DNA of 55,034 nucleotides from Candidatus Altarchaeota archaeon (GTDB lineage: Archaea; SpSt-1190). The stretch is taken from the NCBI GenBank assembly GCA_018220935.1, contig JAAOXU010000001.1, positions 1 through 55,034 of the forward strand. Reading direction: 5' to 3'. Positions 42,597 to 55,034 of the stretch are shown piece after piece. Position numbers and translations under genes: made by a program. The notes below the pieces were generated by a model. That model made no database searches. It saw only the letters and a program-made list of their open reading frames with translations, and had not been told where the DNA came from. How positions within the stretch are numbered: position 1 is the first letter of the stretch; every line of letters starts with the position of its first letter.

Positions 42597-42638
42597 TCAT
42601 CCAAATGGACACAAATCCCGGCCCAGTGTCGGGTATAA

Positions 42639-42655
42639 CCCCGCTTAAGGCGGGG
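42639..42655 (+). terminator. Hairpin CCCCGC-TTAAG-GCGGGG after the L1-L10-L12 operon
   Basis: Perfect 6-bp stem followed by T-rich sequence. Confidence 0.5.
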
Positions 42656-42660
42656 AATTC

Positions 42661-42670
42661 TTTTATATTA
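42661..42670 (+). promoter_or_regulatory. Putative TATA box of a leaderless gene
   Basis: TTTTATATTA about 24 nt upstream of GTG 42689. Confidence 0.55.
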
Positions 42671-42688
42671 TCAGTATTTGCTACTTAT

Positions 42689-45600
42689 GTGAGAAAATCA
42701 TTGGTATTAATCTTATTGTTATTGCCAGTTTTATCTCTAAATATAACGGTCCAGTGTGATTCAAACTGTTATACGTATATTCCTGTAAATGGCTATGGAT
42801 ACATTAATTATACTGTAAACGGCAGTCTCTTAGAGGATGTTTACAGGTCTGCAACCCTCATAAACGTAACAGGAACTAATCTTTCAACCCTTATGATTTT
42901 CAACCTAGCAGATTATGGGTGTAGCAACCCATCAGACTTGTTTCTTAATCAAAGTCCAGTTGAAGCTGCATTCTTTGAGGATTTATTAGTAGCAGAATAC
43001 GATTTAGACGGGGTCAATACCACATTTAAACTATTTTGTGACGGAAGTAATGATTTGAGAAGTCAAGCAAGCTGGTATAACAAAATCAGTGTAACTTCAA
43101 TTTTTAGTCAAGATAATTTGACTTTTATTGATGGAAAATATGTTTTAACTGGATTAACGTTAGATGCTTCAGTTGAATTTTCAGGACCAGTTAGAGCAAT
43201 TGAGAGAACATATGGTAATGTAACAATTGGTGAAGTTGAGCTTTCAGTATTAAACATAAGTTCATATGACAATTCACTTGTCTGGCAAGACAATATTGAA
43301 CTGCCGTATTCAGATTATGTTTATTTGGACTTCGCAAATTTGACAGGGGATGATGAGCGGTTCTTTGTAGTGAGTCACGGAAATGTAACTTGGGGAAATA
43401 TTACCATATTAAATGAAGATTTAGACATCAACGCTTCACTTGGATTTAATCTAACTAAGGGTGTGGCAATAACTGATTATGATGGGGACAGTGAGAACGA
43501 AATTGTAGCTTGTATTAACAAAACCACCACATTTAATCTCACAACTTTTGAATTTATTGGAACGTGGGCTAATACAACATCAAACATTAATTGTGAAAGT
43601 TTTGGTTCGTTTGACCCCATAAGTTATCCAGACACTAATGGAAGTATTGTAACTTATAACTCAACTTCATTAATTTGGATCGTCTTTAACACCACCACAA
43701 CAGTTTATACTAAAAGTTGGGCAAATATCAAAGATGTTGCAAGTATAGATCTTGATGCAGACACATATTCAGAAATTTTAATCACAACAACAGATGGAGA
43801 AGTTAATGCATATGAGGTTACAGATTTATTCACAACTCAACACTTAGATTATTTTGGGAAGCACAAAAATGATTTTATTGATGCAAGTAGTGATATTTTA
43901 ACTTACAACGGTTCACTCAACCTTTATTCAGGAAATTATCTTACAAATAAAGGTGAATTAAATTATACTCAAACCAGTATTTTAGCACCCATAAAAATTA
44001 GTCTAAACTTTAGTGTTGGGGGTAGTGGGGATGCGACTTTGAGTACGGCACTTTGGGAGTCAACAGGCGAGAATTATTGGTATTTTAGTCAGACATATAC
44101 TCAAGGATTTCACCAAGTTGAATTATATCCACAGCAAAACGGAAGTTTAACTATTAATTTTACACTCTCGGGAGTGAACGCAAGTTATGATTCATGGATT
44201 AAAGTGGATTCACTTCTTGTTCACAATGTAAGTTTAGACTTTGTTAATTTTAGTGATTACCAAAATTATACTTTGAGTGCAATCCCAATTAATACTACAA
44301 TTTTGTCAGACAATCTAAATATAGTTGGAGCAAACTTTAGTGACTCATACTACCTTAATTATATTGTTGCATTCTTTGGTATTGGAAACCATAGCGTCCA
44401 GCTTGATGCACCCGAGTACTCAATTAGTTTATCAAAACCAAGTTTAGGAGTCTCAAGTGCAAGTTACTTTGTTAATGCAACTAGTGCAATTCAACCAAGT
44501 CAAAGTGAGGGAAATTTTTCTAGTATTGCTGGGTTTAGTAATATACTTCGTTTGGTTACTCAAGGTGTTAGTGTATCAACATATGGTACAGTAAATGATT
44601 ATTGTTCATTTGGAAAATACTTAGTTTATACCTATGGTAATGCAACACTTCTTAGTTGGAATGGTCAAGTTGATGAAGTTGGAAATCTAACAGGCAATTT
44701 CACCGGATGTTGGCTAAATGATGACCGGATTTATCTTGTGAATTCAACAGGAGGTATTGATATTTTTGATTTTTCACTCGTAAGAGTTGGAAACTTTTCA
44801 AATTCAAGTTTTATTGTACAAGATATTGTAGTAATTAATGATATTTATGGGTGGAATGGAACTCACACTGCAAGATTAGAGTACAATTCAAGTTTTGATT
44901 CAAAAAACCTTTGGAGTGATAATATTTATGGGCTACAACACAAATATCACAGTCTAAACACCACAGGCATAAGTGATAAACCTGGATTTGATCTTGCTCT
45001 TGATGGATTATGGGACTTTGTATCATCAGGGGTATATTCAGCCATTAGTAATTTTATTAGAATATTCACAACACCAATAAGTATAGTAACTGGTTTTAAC
45101 TCAGAAATTATGGCGTTCTTTGACAATGGTACCATTGAAGCCTCAGTACTCAATTTAAGTAAACCAACAATTGGTACATTTAATTTTACACCAAATGTTA
45201 CATATGACGTTCCAGGTAACTGGATATCTTTTGATAGTGCGGGTTATTATCTTATTAATCTTAGTGCTGATGGTTATTTTGAAGATGAAACAGATACTTT
45301 GAGTAGCTTTTCAATGACGTGTAAAAATTCAACATATGAGAAAGAGATGTTTTTTGCAAAAGAATCAAACCACACTTTTATTTTGATAAATAACAGTTTT
45401 TCAGGAAAGTATGAATGTAATCTCATACCCACATGGGAAGTTAGTCTCCCAACAACTTTTACGTCTAAGACTTTTACTGCATACTCTGATTCAGATACCC
45501 CAGTAATTAATAATGCAACTTCAACAATTTATATTTCAGAAGATCAGGCATTTAACATGACACTAAATGTTACTGAAGACTCAGAAATAAAATTAATTAC

Positions 45601-47416
45601 AGTTTACGCAATACAAGGTCCAGCTTCAGCATCAATAATTGATTCAGATTTAAGTGGAGAATTCCAAATTTATAATTTAAGCGTCACATTTTATCCTACA
45701 CCAAACATACCCCCTGTAATAGAGAGTAATTTCACTTTGGGTGTTGAAGACTATACAGGAAAAGTTAGTGCTAATTTTACAACACAAAACTTTACAGTAT
45801 ATGACAGTACACCCCCAGTAATTACTATTATTGATAGTTTACCAGGAAACAATATTCAAGACTTTAGTGATGTGCCATTAAATTTGAGCATTCAAGTTTC
45901 TTCAGGCGATGCCAATATTAGTTGGATAAATGTTACTCTTTGGGATGCAGGGGTTTTACTTAATTATACAAATATTACGGACGTGAATAATGATACACAT
46001 ATATTATGGTTAAATCAATCTTTAACAGCACAGCAAGATAATTATGAAGTAAGAGTTACTACAGCAGATATTGCAGATACACTTAGGTCTGCAACGTTTG
46101 ATATAACAAGATATGGGAAAAACTCAAGAACGTTAGACGGAAAGTGGTATAGTGATGTAAAATTAGTTGAGTATTACTGGACTAATGAATTAAGTTCACA
46201 AAATGTAGATGATATTGATACTATAAGAGAAACGAATACAAGTTCAGTTTTTGAAATCGAAATAGACGCACCCGACAGACCAGTTGATGAGTGGTGGGTA
46301 TTTGCAAATCAATCAGATGGAACAGGTCTAAAATCAATAAAAATGAAGTATGGGGGCTCAGAAGTCTCAAGTGTAACTCAAGACCTCACGTCTACACTAT
46401 ACTTATTTGGTGTAAATACAAGTGATGCACCAGACACAATTATACTTGATGCACAAAGGACTGTTGGAGCTGCCGAAAAAATGTGTCTTATGATTTGTAA
46501 TGACTTTGATGTCGCAGAGAGTACATGTGGTAGTACTTGGGCAGAAAAAACATGCGCTGCTGCTGATGATGATGAAAATATTTTTACAGTTGCAGGTGGG
46601 GACCCATTAATAGTTGATATTGATAGTGGTGGTGTTGGGTTTAGAATTGATAGTGTTGCAATAACAAGTGGTGATGATGGTGACAGTAGTTCTAGTTCAA
46701 GTGGGGACGATACAACGGTAGTAACATCAACTGCAGGTTCAGCAGTAGTTACAATCAGTGCACCCTCATCAAAAACTGTTGATGTTGGTTCTTGTGTTGA
46801 TGTTGAATATTCAATTGCAAATACAGGTTCAGTCTCAGGTTCAATTTCAGGAATTTCAGTATTAAACGTTGATACGGATGAAATTACTTTCACAGTTCTT
46901 TCAGACATTTCATATCCGTATAATTTAGGTGTATCTAAAATTTTAAAGACGATTTTAAGTTTCTGCCCACTTAAACCTGGAGATTATAATCCACGAGTTT
47001 GTGCTAAAATTGGAACTACTAATAAATGTATTAGTGTCAAGATTACAGGAGAAGGGGATGAAGTAACTATACCAACAGGTCCACTTGAAATGGAAGTTAG
47101 TGTTGAGACCTTTGATGATGAATATATAATATTTGTAAACTCAACAATTGGACCAATTGAAGGCGCAACAGTTACAGTAGTATACACAGACGGCACTAAT
47201 GAAACTTTCACTACTAATGTTTTTGGAAAAGTGAATTTTGAACCAAAAATAAAAGATTTTACAGTCACAGTAGATTATGGTGAGGATTCAATTACTAAGG
47301 AAGTTGAAGAAATACTAGAAAAAGTTGGTTTTACAGTTTGGAGAATTTTACTTAGTTTCTTAATTGTTGGTGCGTTAATCGGATTTGGCGTAGTTTTAGA
47401 CGAGAAAATGATGTAG
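42689..47416 (+). CDS. Giant sequon-rich extracellular protein with C-terminal TM (surface/S-layer-like)
   Basis: Start revised to GTG 42689 (VRKSLVLILLLLPVLSL signal peptide); the track N-terminus reads through a hairpin. C-terminal TM VGFTVWRILLSFLIVGALIGFGVVL. Confidence 0.75.
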   Translation: MRKSLVLILLLLPVLSLNITVQCDSNCYTYIPVNGYGYINYTVNGSLLEDVYRSATLINVTGTNLSTLMIFNLADYGCSNPSDLFLNQSPVEAAFFEDLLVAEYDLDGVNTTFKLFCDGSNDLRSQASWYNKISVTSIFSQDNLTFIDGKYVLTGLTLDASVEFSGPVRAIERTYGNVTIGEVELSVLNISSYDNSLVWQDNIELPYSDYVYLDFANLTGDDERFFVVSHGNVTWGNITILNEDLDINASLGFNLTKGVAITDYDGDSENEIVACINKTTTFNLTTFEFIGTWANTTSNINCESFGSFDPISYPDTNGSIVTYNSTSLIWIVFNTTTTVYTKSWANIKDVASIDLDADTYSEILITTTDGEVNAYEVTDLFTTQHLDYFGKHKNDFIDASSDILTYNGSLNLYSGNYLTNKGELNYTQTSILAPIKISLNFSVGGSGDATLSTALWESTGENYWYFSQTYTQGFHQVELYPQQNGSLTINFTLSGVNASYDSWIKVDSLLVHNVSLDFVNFSDYQNYTLSAIPINTTILSDNLNIVGANFSDSYYLNYIVAFFGIGNHSVQLDAPEYSISLSKPSLGVSSASYFVNATSAIQPSQSEGNFSSIAGFSNILRLVTQGVSVSTYGTVNDYCSFGKYLVYTYGNATLLSWNGQVDEVGNLTGNFTGCWLNDDRIYLVNSTGGIDIFDFSLVRVGNFSNSSFIVQDIVVINDIYGWNGTHTARLEYNSSFDSKNLWSDNIYGLQHKYHSLNTTGISDKPGFDLALDGLWDFVSSGVYSAISNFIRIFTTPISIVTGFNSEIMAFFDNGTIEASVLNLSKPTIGTFNFTPNVTYDVPGNWISFDSAGYYLINLSADGYFEDETDTLSSFSMTCKNSTYEKEMFFAKESNHTFILINNSFSGKYECNLIPTWEVSLPTTFTSKTFTAYSDSDTPVINNATSTIYISEDQAFNMTLNVTEDSEIKLITVYAIQGPASASIIDSDLSGEFQIYNLSVTFYPTPNIPPVIESNFTLGVEDYTGKVSANFTTQNFTVYDSTPPVITIIDSLPGNNIQDFSDVPLNLSIQVSSGDANISWINVTLWDAGVLLNYTNITDVNNDTHILWLNQSLTAQQDNYEVRVTTADIADTLRSATFDITRYGKNSRTLDGKWYSDVKLVEYYWTNELSSQNVDDIDTIRETNTSSVFEIEIDAPDRPVDEWWVFANQSDGTGLKSIKMKYGGSEVSSVTQDLTSTLYLFGVNTSDAPDTIILDAQRTVGAAEKMCLMICNDFDVAESTCGSTWAEKTCAAADDDENIFTVAGGDPLIVDIDSGGVGFRIDSVAITSGDDGDSSSSSSGDDTTVVTSTAGSAVVTISAPSSKTVDVGSCVDVEYSIANTGSVSGSISGISVLNVDTDEITFTVLSDISYPYNLGVSKILKTILSFCPLKPGDYNPRVCAKIGTTNKCISVKITGEGDEVTIPTGPLEMEVSVETFDDEYIIFVNSTIGPIEGATVTVVYTDGTNETFTTNVFGKVNFEPKIKDFTVTVDYGEDSITKEVEEILEKVGFTVWRILLSFLIVGALIGFGVVLDEKMM

Positions 47417-48916
47417 TCATTTTACGGGTTTAACTTTTTCAAAACCAAATAATTTTACATAGTCACCAAAGAAACCAGGACAGTTAGGTTTTAGTGAACA
47501 GTTAAAGCAATCCCATTCATAAACTCTTGTGTCAGATGTAAGCCTCTCTGCAAAATCTCTTTTTTTAGGATTTAACTTTTTGTCAAAATCATCTAAATTT
47601 ATCCCATATTGACGTTTTTGGCCACTAAACATACAAAGGGGAACGTTTTTCCACTCACCCTCTAAATTCATTTTTGAGAAAGGAAGTATGGAGTCACTAG
47701 TATCAACTAGGTAATTACTTTTATCAAAAAAATACTTAACGTGTTTATACGGATTAGTTGGTGAAAAAATAATTGGATGCTTGTCGAATTTTTTAGTAAA
47801 GGCTTCGGATTTTTTATTCACTTGAAATTCAATATGATAGTTAACACCTTTAGCTTTTGCTTTTTCAGCTAATTTTAAAGTGTCTTCAAAATTATTAAAG
47901 CCGTCAAAATAAATTATAAAAAAGGGTTCAAAATCGAAGAGTTTAACCACATCAAAGTCTTCAAGTTTTTCAATTTTAAAGTTATTAGACAACTCACGAG
48001 CAAGTTTTAATTTTTCTTTTGTAGGAGTACCCGTAATATAGTTTAAGTTTTTTTCTTTAATTTTTAAAACTAAGTCTTGAGTTGGTCTGCAGTATGGTTG
48101 AACCTCACAATACTCACATTTTTTACTCTCACATTTTTTTGGATGTATCCAAACCATATCCCACATCGCAACCATTTCGTGAGCTATAACTTCCCAAGGT
48201 TCTTTATGGTGCTCATAACCTTTTGGAAAATCTTGAATTGGCGTTCTTGTAACCCACATAACAATATTGTTTTTTTGTGCATATTCACAAACTTCCCTTA
48301 AACTTTGTTTAAGTTTATCATGATCGGGCATAAGTTTTAGATCCCATGTCCCACCACTAGGTGCAGTTCCAATAAGGTCATAATCATATTTTGAAAATCC
48401 CAGTTTTTTGTGAATATATTCTAAAATATTTTTAAGTTCTAGTACATTCAAACTACTAATGGCCGTGTTAAAACTTAAGTGAATATTAGCCTCCTCACAA
48501 TTTTTTGCTGCAATTGATGCTTGTTTAAAACTTCCAGGAGTTCTTGTTAAGCCATCGTGTTTTTCTGCCGTTGCTGCATGTAAACTAATTGTAGTTTCAG
48601 TTAGTCCAGCAAGCGCGACTTTTTTTACGAAACTTTTTATTGAAAACATTCGTCCATTACTAATTGTCTGTATTCTTTCATAACCAATTTTTTTTGCAAA
48701 ACTAACAAATTCAACAAAATCTGGGTGAATTGAGGCCTCCCCACCAGTTAAAACTAGCCAATTAGCGCCCCTATTGCGCCCCTCTACAATTTCTTTAAAT
48801 ATGTTTTTAGAACTAAAAAATGAAGGATTTCTTGCGGTTTGTAGACAAAAAATACAGTTACTATTACACCCGAGTCCGGTAAGAACAATATTTTTTTTGA
48901 TAAATTTTTCTTCCAT
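47417..48916 (-). CDS. Radical SAM protein (1), with extra C-terminal Cys clusters
   Basis: CNSNCIFC, TGGEASIHP, CEYCEVQPYC, CFNCSLKPNCPG. Confidence 0.88.
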   Translation of the reverse strand: MEEKFIKKNIVLTGLGCNSNCIFCLQTARNPSFFSSKNIFKEIVEGRNRGANWLVLTGGEASIHPDFVEFVSFAKKIGYERIQTISNGRMFSIKSFVKKVALAGLTETTISLHAATAEKHDGLTRTPGSFKQASIAAKNCEEANIHLSFNTAISSLNVLELKNILEYIHKKLGFSKYDYDLIGTAPSGGTWDLKLMPDHDKLKQSLREVCEYAQKNNIVMWVTRTPIQDFPKGYEHHKEPWEVIAHEMVAMWDMVWIHPKKCESKKCEYCEVQPYCRPTQDLVLKIKEKNLNYITGTPTKEKLKLARELSNNFKIEKLEDFDVVKLFDFEPFFIIYFDGFNNFEDTLKLAEKAKAKGVNYHIEFQVNKKSEAFTKKFDKHPIIFSPTNPYKHVKYFFDKSNYLVDTSDSILPFSKMNLEGEWKNVPLCMFSGQKRQYGINLDDFDKKLNPKKRDFAERLTSDTRVYEWDCFNCSLKPNCPGFFGDYVKLFGFEKVKPVK

Positions 48917-49854
48917 TAGTCCGCACCAGACCTTTCAATTATTCTTAAAGGATCAACAAAGATTGGGTAAATTTCACGCACACCATGAATTTTCACATAG
49001 TCCTTATCGACCCCAGGACAAATTGGGTTAAGAGTACAAGCCTCACAAGCCTCACCCTTTTCGTATTCAACTTCAAAATATTTTTTATCGTAACTAATAC
49101 TTTCAATAGATCTATTCACTTTATTTTGTTCATCAGTTATAATTCTTCTAAGTTCCGTATTATTTTCTGCAAATTCAAGGGCATAGCACAAGGGGATTCG
49201 CTCAAACCTAAAACTCTTTTTAGCATTGGTTAAAATTGCAAAACTTTGATTAACAGATAATTCAGCATCGCTATACTTTGGCACAACGTCTTTATTGTTT
49301 TTTGAAGAACCAATGGCATCAACATAGTTTATAGTGTAGTGATTTATTTGAGGATACTCTTTTGTCATAAATTTAAAAAATTCAGGTAATTCTAAATAAT
49401 TATTTTGTATTACGAGTGTTGTTATATTTACATCAAGACCTTCATTAATTGCGTTTTTTATCCCAGCTAATTGTTTTTCTAAAATACCTTTTCCTTTCAT
49501 AACTAAGTCAACAGTCTCAGGTACATGAGAATGAACTGAAAAAATAGCTTGACCTAGTCCAGCATCCTTTAGTTTTTTTGCAACATCTTTAGTAAAAAGA
49601 GTTCCACCAGTTTGAAGTGCGACATCACCAAAGCCTAAATCCTTTGCGTATTTTACAAATTCAATGACATCAGGGTGAAGCAAAGGTTCACCCCCCGTAA
49701 TTAGGAGTTTTCCAAATCCCTGTGTTGAATAGGTTTTGATAAGTTCTTTCATTTTCTTAGAGTCTTCTGGACCTGTTCTTTCCCTTAAGCCCTGTGAACA
49801 AAAAATACAGTTTAGAGGACACTTAAGCAAAATTTCAAGATAAACACTCTTCAT
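48916..49854 (-). CDS. Radical SAM protein (2)
   Basis: CPLNCIFC, ITGGEPLLHP, CEACTLNPICPG. Confidence 0.9.
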   Translation of the reverse strand: MKSVYLEILLKCPLNCIFCSQGLRERTGPEDSKKMKELIKTYSTQGFGKLLITGGEPLLHPDVIEFVKYAKDLGFGDVALQTGGTLFTKDVAKKLKDAGLGQAIFSVHSHVPETVDLVMKGKGILEKQLAGIKNAINEGLDVNITTLVIQNNYLELPEFFKFMTKEYPQINHYTINYVDAIGSSKNNKDVVPKYSDAELSVNQSFAILTNAKKSFRFERIPLCYALEFAENNTELRRIITDEQNKVNRSIESISYDKKYFEVEYEKGEACEACTLNPICPGVDKDYVKIHGVREIYPIFVDPLRIIERSGAD

Positions 49855-49890: not shown

Positions 49891-50316
49891 GTGAAACTCA
49901 TCAAAAAAGATTATATTTTCGTCGGTTTGATTATTATAGCACTTATTGGTGGTTTTATTTGGGGACTAAAGCCATGGGAGACAACTAAAAGCCCAAAGGA
50001 ACACTTAGCAGGGATTTATGGTAAACTCGAAGTTGATGGCATAAAATTGTATCAAGTTGAGAGATTAACTGAAAACTGTGCAATTGGTCATTTTTATGTT
50101 GATACAGAACCAAAAGGCGTAGTAGTTTGTTTAAAGGACGTAACATTAGATGAAATCAAAGTATTTGGTGGAGAAGAAGCAAGTATGCCTCCTTTTATTG
50201 GTAGAATTTTTGATTATGCGCAATTTAGTTTAAGTTTTGGTGATGAATCAACAGAAGTTGACAGAATTCGCATAGGACAAATTGTAGGAAGGGTCATTAA
50301 TTACGTTGAGAATTAA
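49891..50316 (+). CDS. Small membrane-anchored protein inside the radical SAM cluster
   Basis: N-terminal TM FVGLIIIALIGGFIWGL; convergent with and overlapping radical SAM (3); GTG start. Confidence 0.6.
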   Translation: MKLIKKDYIFVGLIIIALIGGFIWGLKPWETTKSPKEHLAGIYGKLEVDGIKLYQVERLTENCAIGHFYVDTEPKGVVVCLKDVTLDEIKVFGGEEASMPPFIGRIFDYAQFSLSFGDESTEVDRIRIGQIVGRVINYVEN

Positions 50317-51241
50317 GGTCATCAAAAGTAACTTTGGTTCCAGAAATTGGTTTAAATTCACTTGACCCTCGTTTTTTCACATATTCAATCCAAGGACCCT
50401 CACATACATTATAGAATGCACAAGGTTTACACGTGTCCCCTTTCCATTTACCCTCATTAATTCTCCATTTTTCCCACTCTCTGACTTTCACACCACTCTC
50501 ATAAACATCGGATGGAGGAATTTGAAGTTCTGAAACATAAATTTCATAGCCACTCATATGACAATACGGCATAGCTTCTGCCATAACTTTTAGACCATTG
50601 TCTATTCCAACTTGTAGTCCCTTGTGTATATGAGGTGCTGCTAAACTCACATAAGGCACAATTGAATCAAAATTTGTCCACGACCTACCAGCTGGATGTA
50701 CGAAAGCTAATTGGTATTGATTGACTTTTAGTTTCACCAACAGTGAAGTTATTTGATTAAGATACCTATAATTTGGTTTAGTAACTACTGTGTTAGTTAG
50801 TATTGGGATATCAGATAAATTTCTCACATTTTTAATACCTTGAACTGTTTGTTTAAAAGCACCAGGAGATCGAAGTAAAAAATCATGAAGTTCAGGAACA
50901 TGACCATTTAATGCAGGTGCAAATTCATTCACCCCAGCATCTAACATCTTTTTAGTGAACGTTTTAGAAGCAAATCGTCTCCCATTAGTCTGAACCTGAA
51001 TCAAGTGATAGTCTAAGTCTTTAGCCAAACTAACCCAACTAGCTAATTCATCCCGTATAGTTGGTTCTCCACCCGTAAAAACAATGTCTTTTATACCCCT
51101 AGAGCGTGCTTCCTTGATTTCTGCCTTTATTTGTTCACTAGGTTTATCTTTTTCATTATATCTTTTATCACCCTGAACACAGTGTCTACAAAGACTATTG
51201 CACGTAAATCCAACCTTAATATCAAGCTTTCTCAAAATCAT
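50297..51241 (-). CDS. Radical SAM protein (3)
   Basis: CNSLCRHC, FTGGEPTIRD, CKPCAFYNVCEG. Confidence 0.9.
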   Translation of the reverse strand: MILRKLDIKVGFTCNSLCRHCVQGDKRYNEKDKPSEQIKAEIKEARSRGIKDIVFTGGEPTIRDELASWVSLAKDLDYHLIQVQTNGRRFASKTFTKKMLDAGVNEFAPALNGHVPELHDFLLRSPGAFKQTVQGIKNVRNLSDIPILTNTVVTKPNYRYLNQITSLLVKLKVNQYQLAFVHPAGRSWTNFDSIVPYVSLAAPHIHKGLQVGIDNGLKVMAEAMPYCHMSGYEIYVSELQIPPSDVYESGVKVREWEKWRINEGKWKGDTCKPCAFYNVCEGPWIEYVKKRGSSEFKPISGTKVTFDDLNSQRN

Positions 51242-51912
51242 ACACCCTTAGCATTCAAAGAAGCATAAGCTCTGTAATAACAAAAGAAATCATCAGCACT
51301 TGTTATTTCTAAATCAGAAATTAAACGTAGCGAACTAACATCATTAGTACAAATATTATTCAACACAGCATCAAAAAATTTATCACAAACTGTTACAGGT
51401 TCATTAGTTTCAAGAAACGAGGCATATTCACTACATAAAACAGGAAGACTATAGGACTCACCTGTGTCAGAAAAGGTAAGAAGTTCTAAGTACCCAAAGT
51501 AGAGAGAAAACGATTTAAAATCATCAATTTTCACCTCGCGTATATTGTCAATTACAGTTTTTACATCTTCCCCAGCAATAAACCTCAAATAATGACACCT
51601 TAATCCGTGTGAATTGTCATAAGTATTACAATCAAAATCCATACTTCCCTGTTCGGTGGAAAAGGACATATGATATGCATAGTTTAGTCCATCAAGATCA
51701 CCTTCTGATTTTTTTACACTAAATTCTTTTTCTTTTAGTTTGTAAACAGGAATATAAAATAATTTGTCTGAAGGGATAACCCCCCCTAATTGATCAAAAT
51801 ACGTGTCCCCCACACTTGAGATTTTAGATTCAAACGTTTTAAGTTCATTATTTTGCATAAAAAATAAAGGTAGTAATAAAAAAACGCCAAGAACAGGGAG
51901 ATATTTTTTCAT
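51238..51912 (-). CDS. Secreted or membrane-anchored Cys-containing protein in the radical SAM cluster
   Basis: N-terminal MKKYLPVLGVFLLLPLFFM; overlaps the start of radical SAM (3). Confidence 0.6.
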   Translation of the reverse strand: MKKYLPVLGVFLLLPLFFMQNNELKTFESKISSVGDTYFDQLGGVIPSDKLFYIPVYKLKEKEFSVKKSEGDLDGLNYAYHMSFSTEQGSMDFDCNTYDNSHGLRCHYLRFIAGEDVKTVIDNIREVKIDDFKSFSLYFGYLELLTFSDTGESYSLPVLCSEYASFLETNEPVTVCDKFFDAVLNNICTNDVSSLRLISDLEITSADDFFCYYRAYASLNAKGV

Positions 51913-51933: not shown

Positions 51934-52962
51934 TTATAAGGTTAAACCCGCAGCCTTAAAGACACGTACATTAGCCTTTTGAAACTCGCAGTAGTCTTTC
52001 TTAAATTTAGTTGGGTCTTTTATGGTTCTCCCCAAGGGACACCCATCACACAGTTCATTTGCAGTACAGCTTTTACATGAAGTTGGAACCTGTTCTGCGA
52101 AGTCTTTAAAGGCCTTAGCACGCGTTTTATCAAAATAAACCTCATCAGACACCTCACCTAGCGCAAATATTTCCCTACCCATTAAGTCTTTTGATGAAAT
52201 TAAATTAGGGCACGCAACAATTTTACTGTCAACTGTTAGAGCCAATAGTTTCTCACCTGCCTTACACGCGAACCGTTCACCTTTGGTTGGCACAAATTTT
52301 AGCATAGAACTTAATCCTTTGTCTGAAAATTCCCTGTAAAAATCAGGTGCATATGCAATACAGTAAAGTGGATCTGCATTCTCATATGTTTTACCACGAC
52401 CAAGTTTAGTAAGGTACGCTGAAGATACACGTTTAACACCAAGAGATAATAAAAATTCAGTAATTTCCTTGTGCTTTCCTACTTTATTTTTTGATATATT
52501 AAATCTGACCATTAACTTATTTGGGTCTACTTCACATATTTTTTTAATATTTTCAATAACAATTTTTGAAGTTCCTCCACCATCATGAAACGGTCGCTCA
52601 AAATCCTGTATTTCTGGAAGGCCTTCAAAAGTCATATAAAAATTAACTTTAAGTTCAAGCAAATCATCTAAGAGTTTTTCTGATAAAACACCATTAGTGT
52701 TTATCATTATAGTCGGGTCCAAAAACTCCTCTTTTATGATTTTTATTAAGGGTAATAGTTTAGGATATAGTGTTGGTTCCCCACCAGTAAGATTAACAAC
52801 GGCTCTTGGACGAACCCGGGGGGCAATATATTCTATAAATTTTACCGCATGATCAAAATTAATTTGGTCTCCTTTGTTTTTAATATCAAGAAAGCAGTAC
52901 TTACAATTAATATTACAGTAATCAACAAGTGACAGAGCGAGCCTCGTAATTGCGGGTTTCAT
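51934..52962 (-). CDS. Radical SAM/SPASM-like protein (4), directly downstream of the His-Xaa-Ser protein
   Basis: CNINCKYC, LTGGEPTLYP, CKSCTANELCDGCPLG...DYC. Confidence 0.88.
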   Translation of the reverse strand: MKPAITRLALSLVDYCNINCKYCFLDIKNKGDQINFDHAVKFIEYIAPRVRPRAVVNLTGGEPTLYPKLLPLIKIIKEEFLDPTIMINTNGVLSEKLLDDLLELKVNFYMTFEGLPEIQDFERPFHDGGGTSKIVIENIKKICEVDPNKLMVRFNISKNKVGKHKEITEFLLSLGVKRVSSAYLTKLGRGKTYENADPLYCIAYAPDFYREFSDKGLSSMLKFVPTKGERFACKAGEKLLALTVDSKIVACPNLISSKDLMGREIFALGEVSDEVYFDKTRAKAFKDFAEQVPTSCKSCTANELCDGCPLGRTIKDPTKFKKDYCEFQKANVRVFKAAGLTL

Positions 52963-52983: not shown

Positions 52984-53373
52984 TTAACAAATTCCTATGT
53001 CAAGAAAGCAAGTTAGTTTACCACAGTTACTGTGACTTGAGTGACTTGCATGGCTTGAGTGAGATGCATGGCTTGAGTGAGATGCATGGCTTGAGTGAGA
53101 TGCATGACTTGAGTGAGATGCATGGCTTCCGTGACTTGCATGACTCGCATGGCTTGCATGGCTTCCGTGACTTGAATGACTCCCATGGCTTGAATGTGTT
53201 GCTTGAACTTTACTACTAGAATACGTCTCACCCGAAATAGTTGCATGAGAGGGTGCCATTGCTGCTGAAGCTGCCGCAATTAATGCAGTAGCAGTAACAA
53301 GTTTATTCTTATCAAAAAATGCACTTTCATCTTTTAGTAAATTCCTAAATTTCTTTTTCTTGGCTTTCACCAT
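52984..53373 (-). CDS. His-Xaa-Ser repeat protein, candidate RiPP precursor (HxsA-like)
   Basis: MVKAKKKKFRNLLKDESAFFDKNKLVTATALIAAASAAMAPSHATISGETYSSSKVQAT-(HXS)18-HSN-CGKLTCFLDIGIC. Start revised from the track's 53445. Confidence 0.8.
   Translation of the reverse strand: MVKAKKKKFRNLLKDESAFFDKNKLVTATALIAAASAAMAPSHATISGETYSSSKVQATHSSHGSHSSHGSHASHASHASHGSHASHSSHASHSSHASHSSHASHSSHASHSSHSNCGKLTCFLDIGIC
53033..53206 (-). repeat. 9/18-bp tandem repeat encoding HXS triplets
   Basis: On the plus strand gcttgagtgagatgcatg recurs, most regular at 53051-53125. Confidence 0.8.
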
Positions 53374-53404: not shown

Positions 53405-54835
53405 TTATTTTTGGGGTGATTTAGCAAGTAAGTTTCTAGGATCAAGTGGTTTAGTCCAAGAAATTAACATTTTTTTGAATTTTAAGTCTTTTTCAGATCG
53501 TTTAATCAAATACCTTATCATCTCACTGTGAATCGCGTGTCTCCTATCAAAAACAATTTTACTTTGAACATCTCCTTGCTGTCTATATGACTCAACAGGA
53601 CAAACACCACAGAATGGCTTTAATTCACAGTGATCACATATATTAAAGAATCCACTTGACGCCATTAAGATATTGCTTAAAGTTGCATTTTTTAGAACTT
53701 TTGAATATTTTTGAGTCACATCACCCAACCTAAACTCTTCAAACATCCTACCCTCATCACAAGTATAGATTCCCCCGTCTGGCGCATATGCAATCTGATT
53801 TAGCCCAGCACCACAAGGCATCTGAAGCTCACAGTACCCAGGATCAATAACGTTAAAGAGTTTTTCAGAAATAACTTCTGCTATTCCCTCTCGCACATGA
53901 ACACCTCTTTTATTCAATTCAAACATATATTCAATAACATCTTTCCATGCAACGAGAAATTCCTCAGGACCATATCCTATCTCACCCCAGAGTTCTGATG
54001 CTCTGCCGAAATATCCAAGATACTTAAAACGTAAAGTTCTAAACCCATAAGACAAATACTCGTCAACTAATTCTCTGCCACGAGAAAGTGTATATTTTGT
54101 GACTACAGGGAGTGCCTGAAGACCCGGATATCCTTCACTCCTAATTTTCTTAATCCACTTAGTAATATAGTCATATGTGCCTCCACCAGTCCTAAAGGGT
54201 CTGTGTTTATCATGAAGATCTTTTGGTCCGTCAAGTGAAAAACAAATACCAATATTATGTTCTCTAAAAAATTTGAGTTTCTCATCAGTCCAACTACTCC
54301 CATTATTAATTATTGCAAAGCCAACACGTTTTTTTAGTTTTTTAGCCATCTTTTTTGATTCAAGAACTACAGTCTTTAGAGCTGGAAAATTGAGTAAAGG
54401 TTCCCCACCACTAAATTCAATAACTATGGTTTTTGCAGGGGATTTCATAATAAATTCTGATACTTTTTTAGCCGTTTCATCACTCATATGACGCTCCACC
54501 CCCCCTTCAGCATAACAATACTTACATGCAAAATTACAAACCCCTGTTACTGCTACTACATGTAAAGAAGGCCCATTTCCAAGATGCCATAAACGTTTTT
54601 TTAGTCTATCACTTGCAAGGGGAAGTTCACTCTCAATTACAATTATACCAGCAGTCCTTAGTGTAGAAAAAAGTAAAGAGTCATCTTCAACCAGGTTAGA
54701 TTGTAATAAATTAAATTGATCTTTATTCAAAACAGCCCACCCACCAGAATCGGTAGTGACTAAAAAATCACTGTTCAGTCTACCTACGTTATAAGGTAAA
54801 ATAACATATTTATCTTTCAATAAAGGACCAGTCAA
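53405..54835 (-). CDS. Radical SAM/SPASM maturase, HxsB-like
   Basis: CNFACKYC, IEFSGGEPLLNF, CDHCELKPFCGVCPVE; N-terminal layout matches what I recall of HxsB. TTG start overlaps the upstream stop. Confidence 0.82.
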   Translation of the reverse strand: MTGPLLKDKYVILPYNVGRLNSDFLVTTDSGGWAVLNKDQFNLLQSNLVEDDSLLFSTLRTAGIIVIESELPLASDRLKKRLWHLGNGPSLHVVAVTGVCNFACKYCYAEGGVERHMSDETAKKVSEFIMKSPAKTIVIEFSGGEPLLNFPALKTVVLESKKMAKKLKKRVGFAIINNGSSWTDEKLKFFREHNIGICFSLDGPKDLHDKHRPFRTGGGTYDYITKWIKKIRSEGYPGLQALPVVTKYTLSRGRELVDEYLSYGFRTLRFKYLGYFGRASELWGEIGYGPEEFLVAWKDVIEYMFELNKRGVHVREGIAEVISEKLFNVIDPGYCELQMPCGAGLNQIAYAPDGGIYTCDEGRMFEEFRLGDVTQKYSKVLKNATLSNILMASSGFFNICDHCELKPFCGVCPVESYRQQGDVQSKIVFDRRHAIHSEMIRYLIKRSEKDLKFKKMLISWTKPLDPRNLLAKSPQK

Positions 54836-55034
54836 ACCAACACCTCCAAGAGTTCTCTAAATTTTTCATAAATTTCATTCTCACTTAAATCAGATTCATA
54901 AAGCAAGTATTCGTCAAATTCTTTACCCATTCCAAAAGTTAGTTCAACCAACTTTTTTGGATATATGTGAGTATTTACTCTAAAAATGGATTTATTATTT
55001 CGTCTTTTTATCCCCTTCACGACTTTCACCAAAC
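54832..55034 (-). CDS. Small HxsD-like protein, 5' end truncated by the window edge
   Basis: ...NNKSIFRVNTHIYPKKLVELTFGMGKEFDEYLLYESDLSENEIYEKFRELLEVLV; assignment rests mainly on position and size. Confidence 0.5.
   Translation of the reverse strand, partial: LVKVVKGIKRRNNKSIFRVNTHIYPKKLVELTFGMGKEFDEYLLYESDLSENEIYEKFRELLEVLV

Follow-up and report, generated by a model that had tools for sequence, protein, structure and literature searches.

A divergent Hxs system with a long His-Xaa-Ser array in a Candidatus Altarchaeota genome

Genes of the locus

The window analyzed here, a stretch of 55,034 nucleotides from a Candidatus Altarchaeota archaeon, contains a gene for an HxsA-like precursor (52984..53373, minus strand) that starts with ATG and encodes 129 amino acids. 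The product has a Lys-rich N-terminus and is laid out as a leader (residues 1-24), an Ala-rich hydrophobic export segment (approximately residues 25-44), a linker and an H-X-S array (residues 60-113). The array consists of 18 uninterrupted H-[S/G/A]-S triplets and is followed by HSN and the three-Cys tail CGKLTCFLDIGIC; the Lys-rich N-terminus, the hydrophobic segment, the triplets, HSN and the tail had already been described in a sequence-only reading of this DNA and were found again as described. When the C-terminal part of the precursor was shuffled 20,000 times, the run of H-x-S triplets never exceeded five. An alternative reading from a TTG start would yield 153 amino acids; the relatives begin near the same Met as the 129-residue form. 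Cys residues behind the array are common to five members of the family, where they occur as SNCGKLTC, TNCC, SNCGC, NTCSCGC and SSCDLC. The precursor scored slightly below the cut-off of the NCBIfam model HxsA4 (NF038313; 51 bits, E 2e-13, cut-off 55), and a comparison with Pfam yielded nothing above the curated cut-offs.

On either side of hxsA a radical SAM protein is encoded whose Cys residues are arranged as in SPASM proteins, as the sequence-only reading had stated. The two neighbors are not an HxsB/HxsC pair. The upstream gene (53405..54835, minus strand; 476 amino acids from a TTG start) encodes an HxsB-like maturase according to both profile and tree, with 349 bits (E 3.8e-104) to TIGR03978, whose cut-off is 370. 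The downstream gene (51934..52962, minus strand; 342 amino acids) is PapB-like, its best NCBIfam match being PapB at 85.6 bits (cut-off 340); its assignment as HxsC was rejected, since its best matches were PapB-like and no HxsC model was among the matches listed. Genes related to HxsC are located further along. A 314-residue radical SAM protein (50297..51241, minus strand) matched HxsC4 (NF038332) with 155 bits (cut-off 500) and HxsC (TIGR03977) with 93 bits (cut-off 268), a second one of 312 residues (48916..49854, minus strand) reached 89 bits to TIGR03977, and a third one of 499 residues (47417..48916, minus strand), which carries a second CxxCx5C in a C-terminal extension, scored 111 bits to HxsC4. 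As the three together ranged from 89 to 93 bits for TIGR03977 and from 74 to 155 bits for HxsC4, far under the respective cut-offs, they are by their profile scores related to HxsC and not equivalogs of it. In total, the cluster thus comprises five radical SAM genes, namely those for HxsB, the PapB-like SPASM protein and the three HxsC-like proteins.

The minus-strand genes form a compact unit. A gene for a small HxsD-like protein (54832..55034, minus strand), truncated at its 5′-end by the end of the contig, overlaps the start of hxsB by 4 bases; gaps of 31 bases between hxsB and hxsA, 21 between hxsA and the 342-residue SPASM gene and 21 between the latter and a gene for a 224-residue protein follow, and this last gene overlaps that of the 314-residue HxsC-like protein by 4 bases. 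The 224-residue protein (sec224; 51238..51912, minus strand) has an N-terminal signal or anchor and homologs in three related loci (L037, L038, L039). Between the first and the two further HxsC-like genes lies, in divergent orientation, the gene for a membrane-anchored protein of 141 residues (p141; 49891..50316, plus strand) with a weak homolog in L038 only. Neither sec224 nor p141 matched a family in NCBIfam or, at curated cut-offs, in Pfam. Converging with the cluster is a gene for a membrane-anchored surface protein of 1603 residues (42605-47416, plus strand), whose homologs in L039 and L037 (30-37% identity) occupy the corresponding position; this shared position makes it a possible partner for the Hxs product.

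Relation to known Hxs systems

The Hxs system was reported by Haft and Basu (as cited in PMC9062424), and variants of it are already known to annotation in the form of the NCBIfam models HxsA3, HxsA4, HxsC4 and HxsD-like. With the bacterial cassette (HxsA/HxsA2-HxsB-HxsC-HxsD) the window shares an exported H-x-S protein, a SPASM enzyme of the HxsB type, HxsC-type radical SAM proteins, a small HxsD and a compact arrangement. It differs in its Cys tail, its five radical SAM genes and a leader of about 24 residues before the export segment, as well as in the length of the array: in the bacterial HxsA and HxsA2 proteins examined, approximately 4-8 consecutive triplets are found behind an ordinary N-terminal signal peptide and a linker, which agrees with the earlier notion that the 18 triplets of the window are the longer repeat. 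In the family relative G002, a pair of HxsD-like ORFs and a gene for an A24 peptidase are further differences from the bacterial cassette. Of the annotated variants, HxsA4 matches the precursor and HxsC4 the 314-residue radical SAM protein, whereas the window scores under every cut-off.

The earlier proposal that an Hxs-type system is present in an archaeon is supported by the E-values of HxsB and of the HxsA4 match, the placement of HxsB in the tree and the neighborhood in other genera. The models HxsA to HxsD, which had been suggested for a search of the locus, gave a mixed picture, with matches of HxsB and HxsA4 that were both under the cut-off, HxsC far under it and no match for the HxsD fragment. 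Since HxsB falls just below its cut-off and the HxsC-like proteins far below theirs, the locus is best described as belonging to an archaeal branch that has diverged within the Hxs system and not as a canonical bacterial cassette; on the basis of the sequence comparisons, we regard its archaeal Hxs identity as very probable.

In HxsB of the window, TIGR03978 covers residues 13-461 and is the best NCBIfam model by 190 bits, followed by PapB with 159 bits; HxsB of G002, a member of the same family, exceeds the cut-off with 370.5 bits. According to the alignment, the cluster Cys residues are C100, C104 and C107 and the auxiliary ones C341, C359, C400, C403, C409 and C412. At residue ~433, the position of the last, nearly invariant Cys of SPASM domains, the window has His (DRRHAIH) where its family relatives have Cys (DRRCKIH), possibly a change of an auxiliary-cluster ligand. 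In a maximum-likelihood tree whose bootstrap is not fully settled, HxsB of the window groups with its own family (100/100) within a clade of archaeal and bacterial HxsB of the H-type, i.e., with H-x-S/T precursors (89/100). Three further archaeal phyla contained matches to HxsB with E ≤ 1e-50, in 20 of 87, 22 of 34 and 4 of 29 genomes, with 16 of these genomes exceeding the curated cut-off.

The expectation that the neighborhood would be conserved in relatives was confirmed by three other genera, in which the order from hxsB and hxsA to the HxsC-like genes recurs. In full, the order hxsB-hxsA-rSAM342-sec224-HxsC314-HxsC312 is kept in G003, G004 and G006 (L037-L039), and HxsC499 is next in line in G004 and G006. 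The protein identities amount to 61-68% for HxsC314 and 49-50% for HxsC312 (L037, L038 and L039), to 52-53% for HxsC499 (L037 and L039) and to 35-45% for the 342-residue SPASM protein, whose homologs occur in four other genera and, the window included, in five of the seven genomes of the family. In G002, the order is A24 peptidase-hxsD-hxsD-hxsB-hxsA. In five genomes of the family, contigs break in or beside hxsD, hxsB or hxsA (at the start in L037, L038 and L039, at the end in L044, and in the window), as if this region were subject to poor assembly or strain variation.

The HxsD-like fragment of the window, which, truncated by the contig end, had no model match of its own, is 45% identical over 65 residues to the second HxsD-like ORF of G002 (L044, 1635-1871). 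Among the relatives, the HxsD model TIGR03976 yielded 47.6 bits for L032 (cut-off 50) and 21.6 bits for L044, and the HxsD-like model NF038315 yielded 56.4 bits for L031, above its cut-off of 41; the archaeal relative G089 passes the HxsD-like model. Against Pfam, the HxsD-like proteins gave nothing above curated cut-offs. Many archaeal loci contain two HxsD-like ORFs, and it is conceivable from the modeling that such a pair forms a heterodimer. A functional assignment from the predicted structure (L044, 1292-1702; pLDDT 80) was set aside, the marginal PDB matches being RNA polymerase subunits of the Rpb11/RpoL type (E 0.007-0.06).

Leaders, A24 peptidases and Trp-repeat sister cassettes

Archaeal H-type precursors mostly carry 3-21 consecutive H-x-S/T triplets, the longest array being that of G003. 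A frameshift had been suspected in this hxsA and was rejected, as a different frame gives an intact precursor with 21 triplets. Among the precursors linked to HxsB, a few are poor in triplets or lack them, G227 being without any H-x-S triplet. Ahead of the hydrophobic segment, the H-type precursors share a leader of roughly the form K-x-P-x-I-K-K-x-I-x-[SN][FL][LI]-x-[DE]E-x-[GA]-x-[IFL]-x-K. The candidate cleavage position is occupied by Gly or Ala in all 18 aligned leaders, and this residue is plausible as a site cut by an A24 (type IV leader) peptidase. Unlike in typical pilins, several polar residues stand between the Gly/Ala and the helix, and a Sec-type, signal-peptidase-like A-x-A is present after the hydrophobic segment as well.

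Genes for such peptidases were indeed encountered at archaeal Hxs loci. Five proteins encoded beside hxsB in archaeal H-type loci were compared with Pfam, and all of them exceed the cut-off of Peptidase_A24 (L044, 552-1256; L032, 7533-8657; L035, 7164-8189; L031, 5171-6307; L033, 13347-14417). A profile built from these neighbors found a neighbor match in 18 of 44 mapped loci; these 44 include duplicates, loci at contig edges and 14 W-type loci without A24. In 15 of 16 H-type genomes, which were picked after the loci had been seen, a match lies less than ~6 kb from hxsB; since only 45 matches occur over these 16 genomes, chance proximity would amount to a few per cent per locus. The genomes without a nearby match include G007, G202, G204 and G173, along with G192 and G227, where contig ends limit the view. 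No A24 gene was found in the genome of the window, whose assembly is 88% complete and whose contig ends inside hxsD, or in the other genomes of its family apart from G002, the contigs ending there too. Surface display of the product with processing by an A24 peptidase is put forward as a tentative possibility that we consider doubtful at present. Should the association with A24 peptidases prove real, RiPP maturation would be tied to the processing pathway of type IV pili, a connection of which we have seen no description, and this would suggest how DPANN archaea build their surfaces.

A second group of cassettes, here called W-type, was found in the phylum of G022 (L040-L042 and L138-L148), usually in the order HxsD-like protein, precursor, HxsC-like protein, HxsB-like protein. 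In their precursors (e.g., L040, 7803-8090, plus strand; L041, 11609-11905, minus strand; L138-L148), H-x-S/T is replaced by W-x-N/D, W-x-W or W-D-H, and the cores are rich in Trp, for instance EWGNWSDWTNSWNNWSDWTNWSDWSDWEHWGNWGNWGNWGNGD (L143), NEWSNWIEWADWKEWCEWGKWGNGG (L040), CWNWSWCWCWSWGWGWG (L140) and CWWDHCWWDHWDHWDHWD (L148). Over 13 precursors, the repeats are W-x-N/D/E/K, W-x-W or W-D-H. In the W-type, residue +1 is mostly small and +2 is N, D, E or K in most repeats, and in the H-type +1 is small and +2 is Ser or Thr in most triplets, counts that are not independent since the sequences are related. Five W-type precursors searched against NCBIfam gave no match. Their HxsB-like enzymes score approximately 250-320 bits to TIGR03978, which is the best model for the one protein run against all NCBIfam models; in the tree they are positioned outside the H-type clade, and a single W-type clade is unsupported. 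The gene after W-type hxsB codes for a membrane protein that has its C-terminal domain in common with the A24 proteins (HHalign probability 99.3%, 109 columns), with the A24 catalytic part outside the alignment. On both sides of the W-type cassette (L040-L042), runs of small genes have N-termini that by eye are like those of type IV pilins (e.g., KKGFSFSISTIAVIFLVV, KKGGLSYTQVFSAMIIIV); compared with Pfam, these neighbors yielded nothing above the cut-off. Neither the association with A24 peptidases nor the Trp-repeat cassettes appear to have been described before in the literature and libraries searched.

The period-2 Trp precursors (L140, 2151-2441; L142; L144; CWNWSWCWCWSWGWGWG) look like several copies of the darobactin core (WNWSKSF) in a row, the L140 repeat being reminiscent of its W-x-W and W-x-K elements. 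This resemblance is by eye only, and darobactin differs in the radical SAM family of its enzyme (DarE) and in lacking the long array of the W-type.

Proposed chemistry and alternative explanations

No report on the chemistry, product or function of Hxs was found in the literature searched, and the structure of HxsB offers limited guidance. A model of the protein (pLDDT 81) has a predicted strand-rich N-terminal domain ahead of the barrel, which is compatible with an RRE-like, leader-binding function. The nearest PDB folds were CteB, TigE (8VPO), anSME and ChlB, with a target-normalized TM of ~0.8 for anSME, to which HxsB is also similar in sequence (E 4e-45). As the nearest folds do not discriminate, the fold search was rejected as a guide to the chemistry; CteB, TigE and anSME have chemistries other than cyclophane formation. 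By sequence, too, HxsB is nearer to PapB, CteB and anSME than to the cyclophane-forming families, so that homology gives no prediction of cyclophanes, and against the models of FxsB, GrrM/OscB and YhhB it reached only 63-77 bits (cut-offs 310-445), which places it outside the characterized families of three-residue cyclophane-forming radical SAM enzymes (3-CyFEs).

TigE and TvgB are similar to HxsB in being SPASM radical SAM enzymes that act on tandem-repeat precursors. TigE modifies one aliphatic residue per repeat, with no aromatic residue involved. The same applies to TvgB (PMC11002830), and in this both are unlike Hxs. In the substrates of the 3-CyFEs, on the other hand, the beta-carbon of residue i+2 becomes bonded to an aromatic residue at position i, the pairs being W to N/D/R, F to N/S, Y to D/R and His C2 to Ala/Arg (PMC11002830). 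Their products, the triceptides (of XncB, OscB, MscB, YxdB, HaaB and YhhB), are cross-linked in this way by SPASM radical SAM enzymes within F-x-S (MscB), H-x-A and H-x-R (HaaB, YhhB) or W-x-N/D (OscB) (PMC11002830), and their tandem aromatic-x-X motif is present here as H-x-S/T in the H-type and as W-x-N/D/E/K in the W-type. The Hxs system differs from them by its two types of radical SAM proteins, its HxsD and arrays of up to 21 motifs. Across the H- and W-types, the aromatic residue and the residue at +2 change together (H with S/T to W with N/D), which points to a bond between i and i+2. This pattern suggests that Hxs enzymes might form an i/i+2 cross-link between His and Ser/Thr, giving a tandem-cyclophane rod, and we see an even chance that they do; should the W-type enzymes not be true HxsB, the argument from the exchange of His for Trp would weaken, and the HxsB-linked precursor of G227, with no H-x-S triplet, speaks against the proposal.

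In such a scheme, the conserved leader would dock on HxsB, perhaps with the help of HxsD, and HxsB together with the HxsC-like enzymes would abstract a beta-hydrogen from the Ser or Thr (i+2) of each H-x-S/T triplet, whose beta-carbon would then be bonded to the imidazole of the His (i). The outcome would be up to 18 three-residue rings in a row, a triceptide-like rod. Export of the modified precursor would proceed via its hydrophobic segment. The leader would, in most of the archaeal relatives, be cut off behind the conserved Gly/Ala by an A24 peptidase dedicated to this task, and what ends up on the cell surface would be the stiff rod and its Cys tail. A broader generalization would regard Hxs enzymes as array-type synthases of three-residue cyclophanes with two natural classes of substrate, (H-x-S/T)n on the one hand and (W-x-N/D)n or (W-x-W)n on the other, whose product is a surface-displayed rod processed by a dedicated prepilin-type peptidase in several archaeal phyla; we consider this rather unlikely as a whole. 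If true, archaea would possess a previously unrecognized kind of surface appendage, rigid and cross-linked, comparable to a pilin-anchored spike.

Other explanations of the array have to be weighed against this cross-link. It might be an exported protein binding Zn, Ni or Cu for metal capture or homeostasis, which the radical SAM enzymes tune or protect. The 18 regularly spaced His, the Cys behind the array in the window and four family relatives, and a weak match of the precursor to the zinc-uptake protein ZrgA, driven by His-rich composition, are in line with this. However, the Trp-repeat sisters, unable to bind metal in this manner, retain genes like those for HxsB, HxsC and HxsD, the loci examined showed neither a transporter nor a regulator for metals, and the paired change of the aromatic and +2 residues would be left unexplained; we therefore judge metal binding to be unlikely. 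The paired change is likewise not accounted for if HxsB oxidizes Ser alone, in the manner of an anaerobic sulfatase maturase, to a formylglycine-like, reactive or metal-chelating repeat free of cross-links. anSME, which is among the closest solved structures, oxidizes the beta-carbon of Ser or Cys. Still, Thr freely swaps for Ser in close relatives and Asn or Asp take this place in the W-type, residues from which formylglycine is impossible, and the constant aromatic first residue would be left without explanation, making Ser-only oxidation a quite improbable reading.

With respect to function, the product might instead be a secreted, bacteriocin-like RiPP that is released by signal peptidase and directed against neighbors or a host. 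The A-x-A behind the hydrophobic segment would fit, and some RiPPs with aromatic cross-links made by radical SAM enzymes are antibacterial, e.g., darobactin (PMC9055067). Nevertheless, the cluster shows no evident gene for a dedicated ABC exporter or for immunity, and the conserved neighbors are membrane-anchored and large surface proteins and an A24 peptidase, all of which leaves this possibility with small prospects. Most likely, the product would serve at the surface in a structural or adhesive capacity and not as a bacteriocin that diffuses freely. At the level of DNA, finally, the array is partly a tandem repeat with periods of 9, 18 and 36 bp, as would be expected of a non-functional, low-complexity tract that arose by slippage beside unrelated radical SAM genes. 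Yet the codons are mixed (CAT and CAC for His; AGC, AGT and TCT for Ser) while the H-x-S register holds, and other genera keep this register despite different X residues and exchanges of Ser and Thr. The use of two His and three Ser codons and the register kept across genera argue against a fresh duplication. Since, moreover, a homologous leader and repeat lie beside HxsB in several archaeal phyla and the repeat lies beside HxsB in bacteria, comparative sequence data effectively refute this scarcely credible reading.

Annotations of the Hxs system exist for many bacteria, conjugative plasmids among them. The archaeal branch offers a natural experiment on the chemistry of the system. Complete bacterial Hxs cassettes were also observed on contigs classed as viral (L169-L181), and matches to HxsB occur in 322 Klebsiella plasmid records, both of which indicate that the system is mobile.
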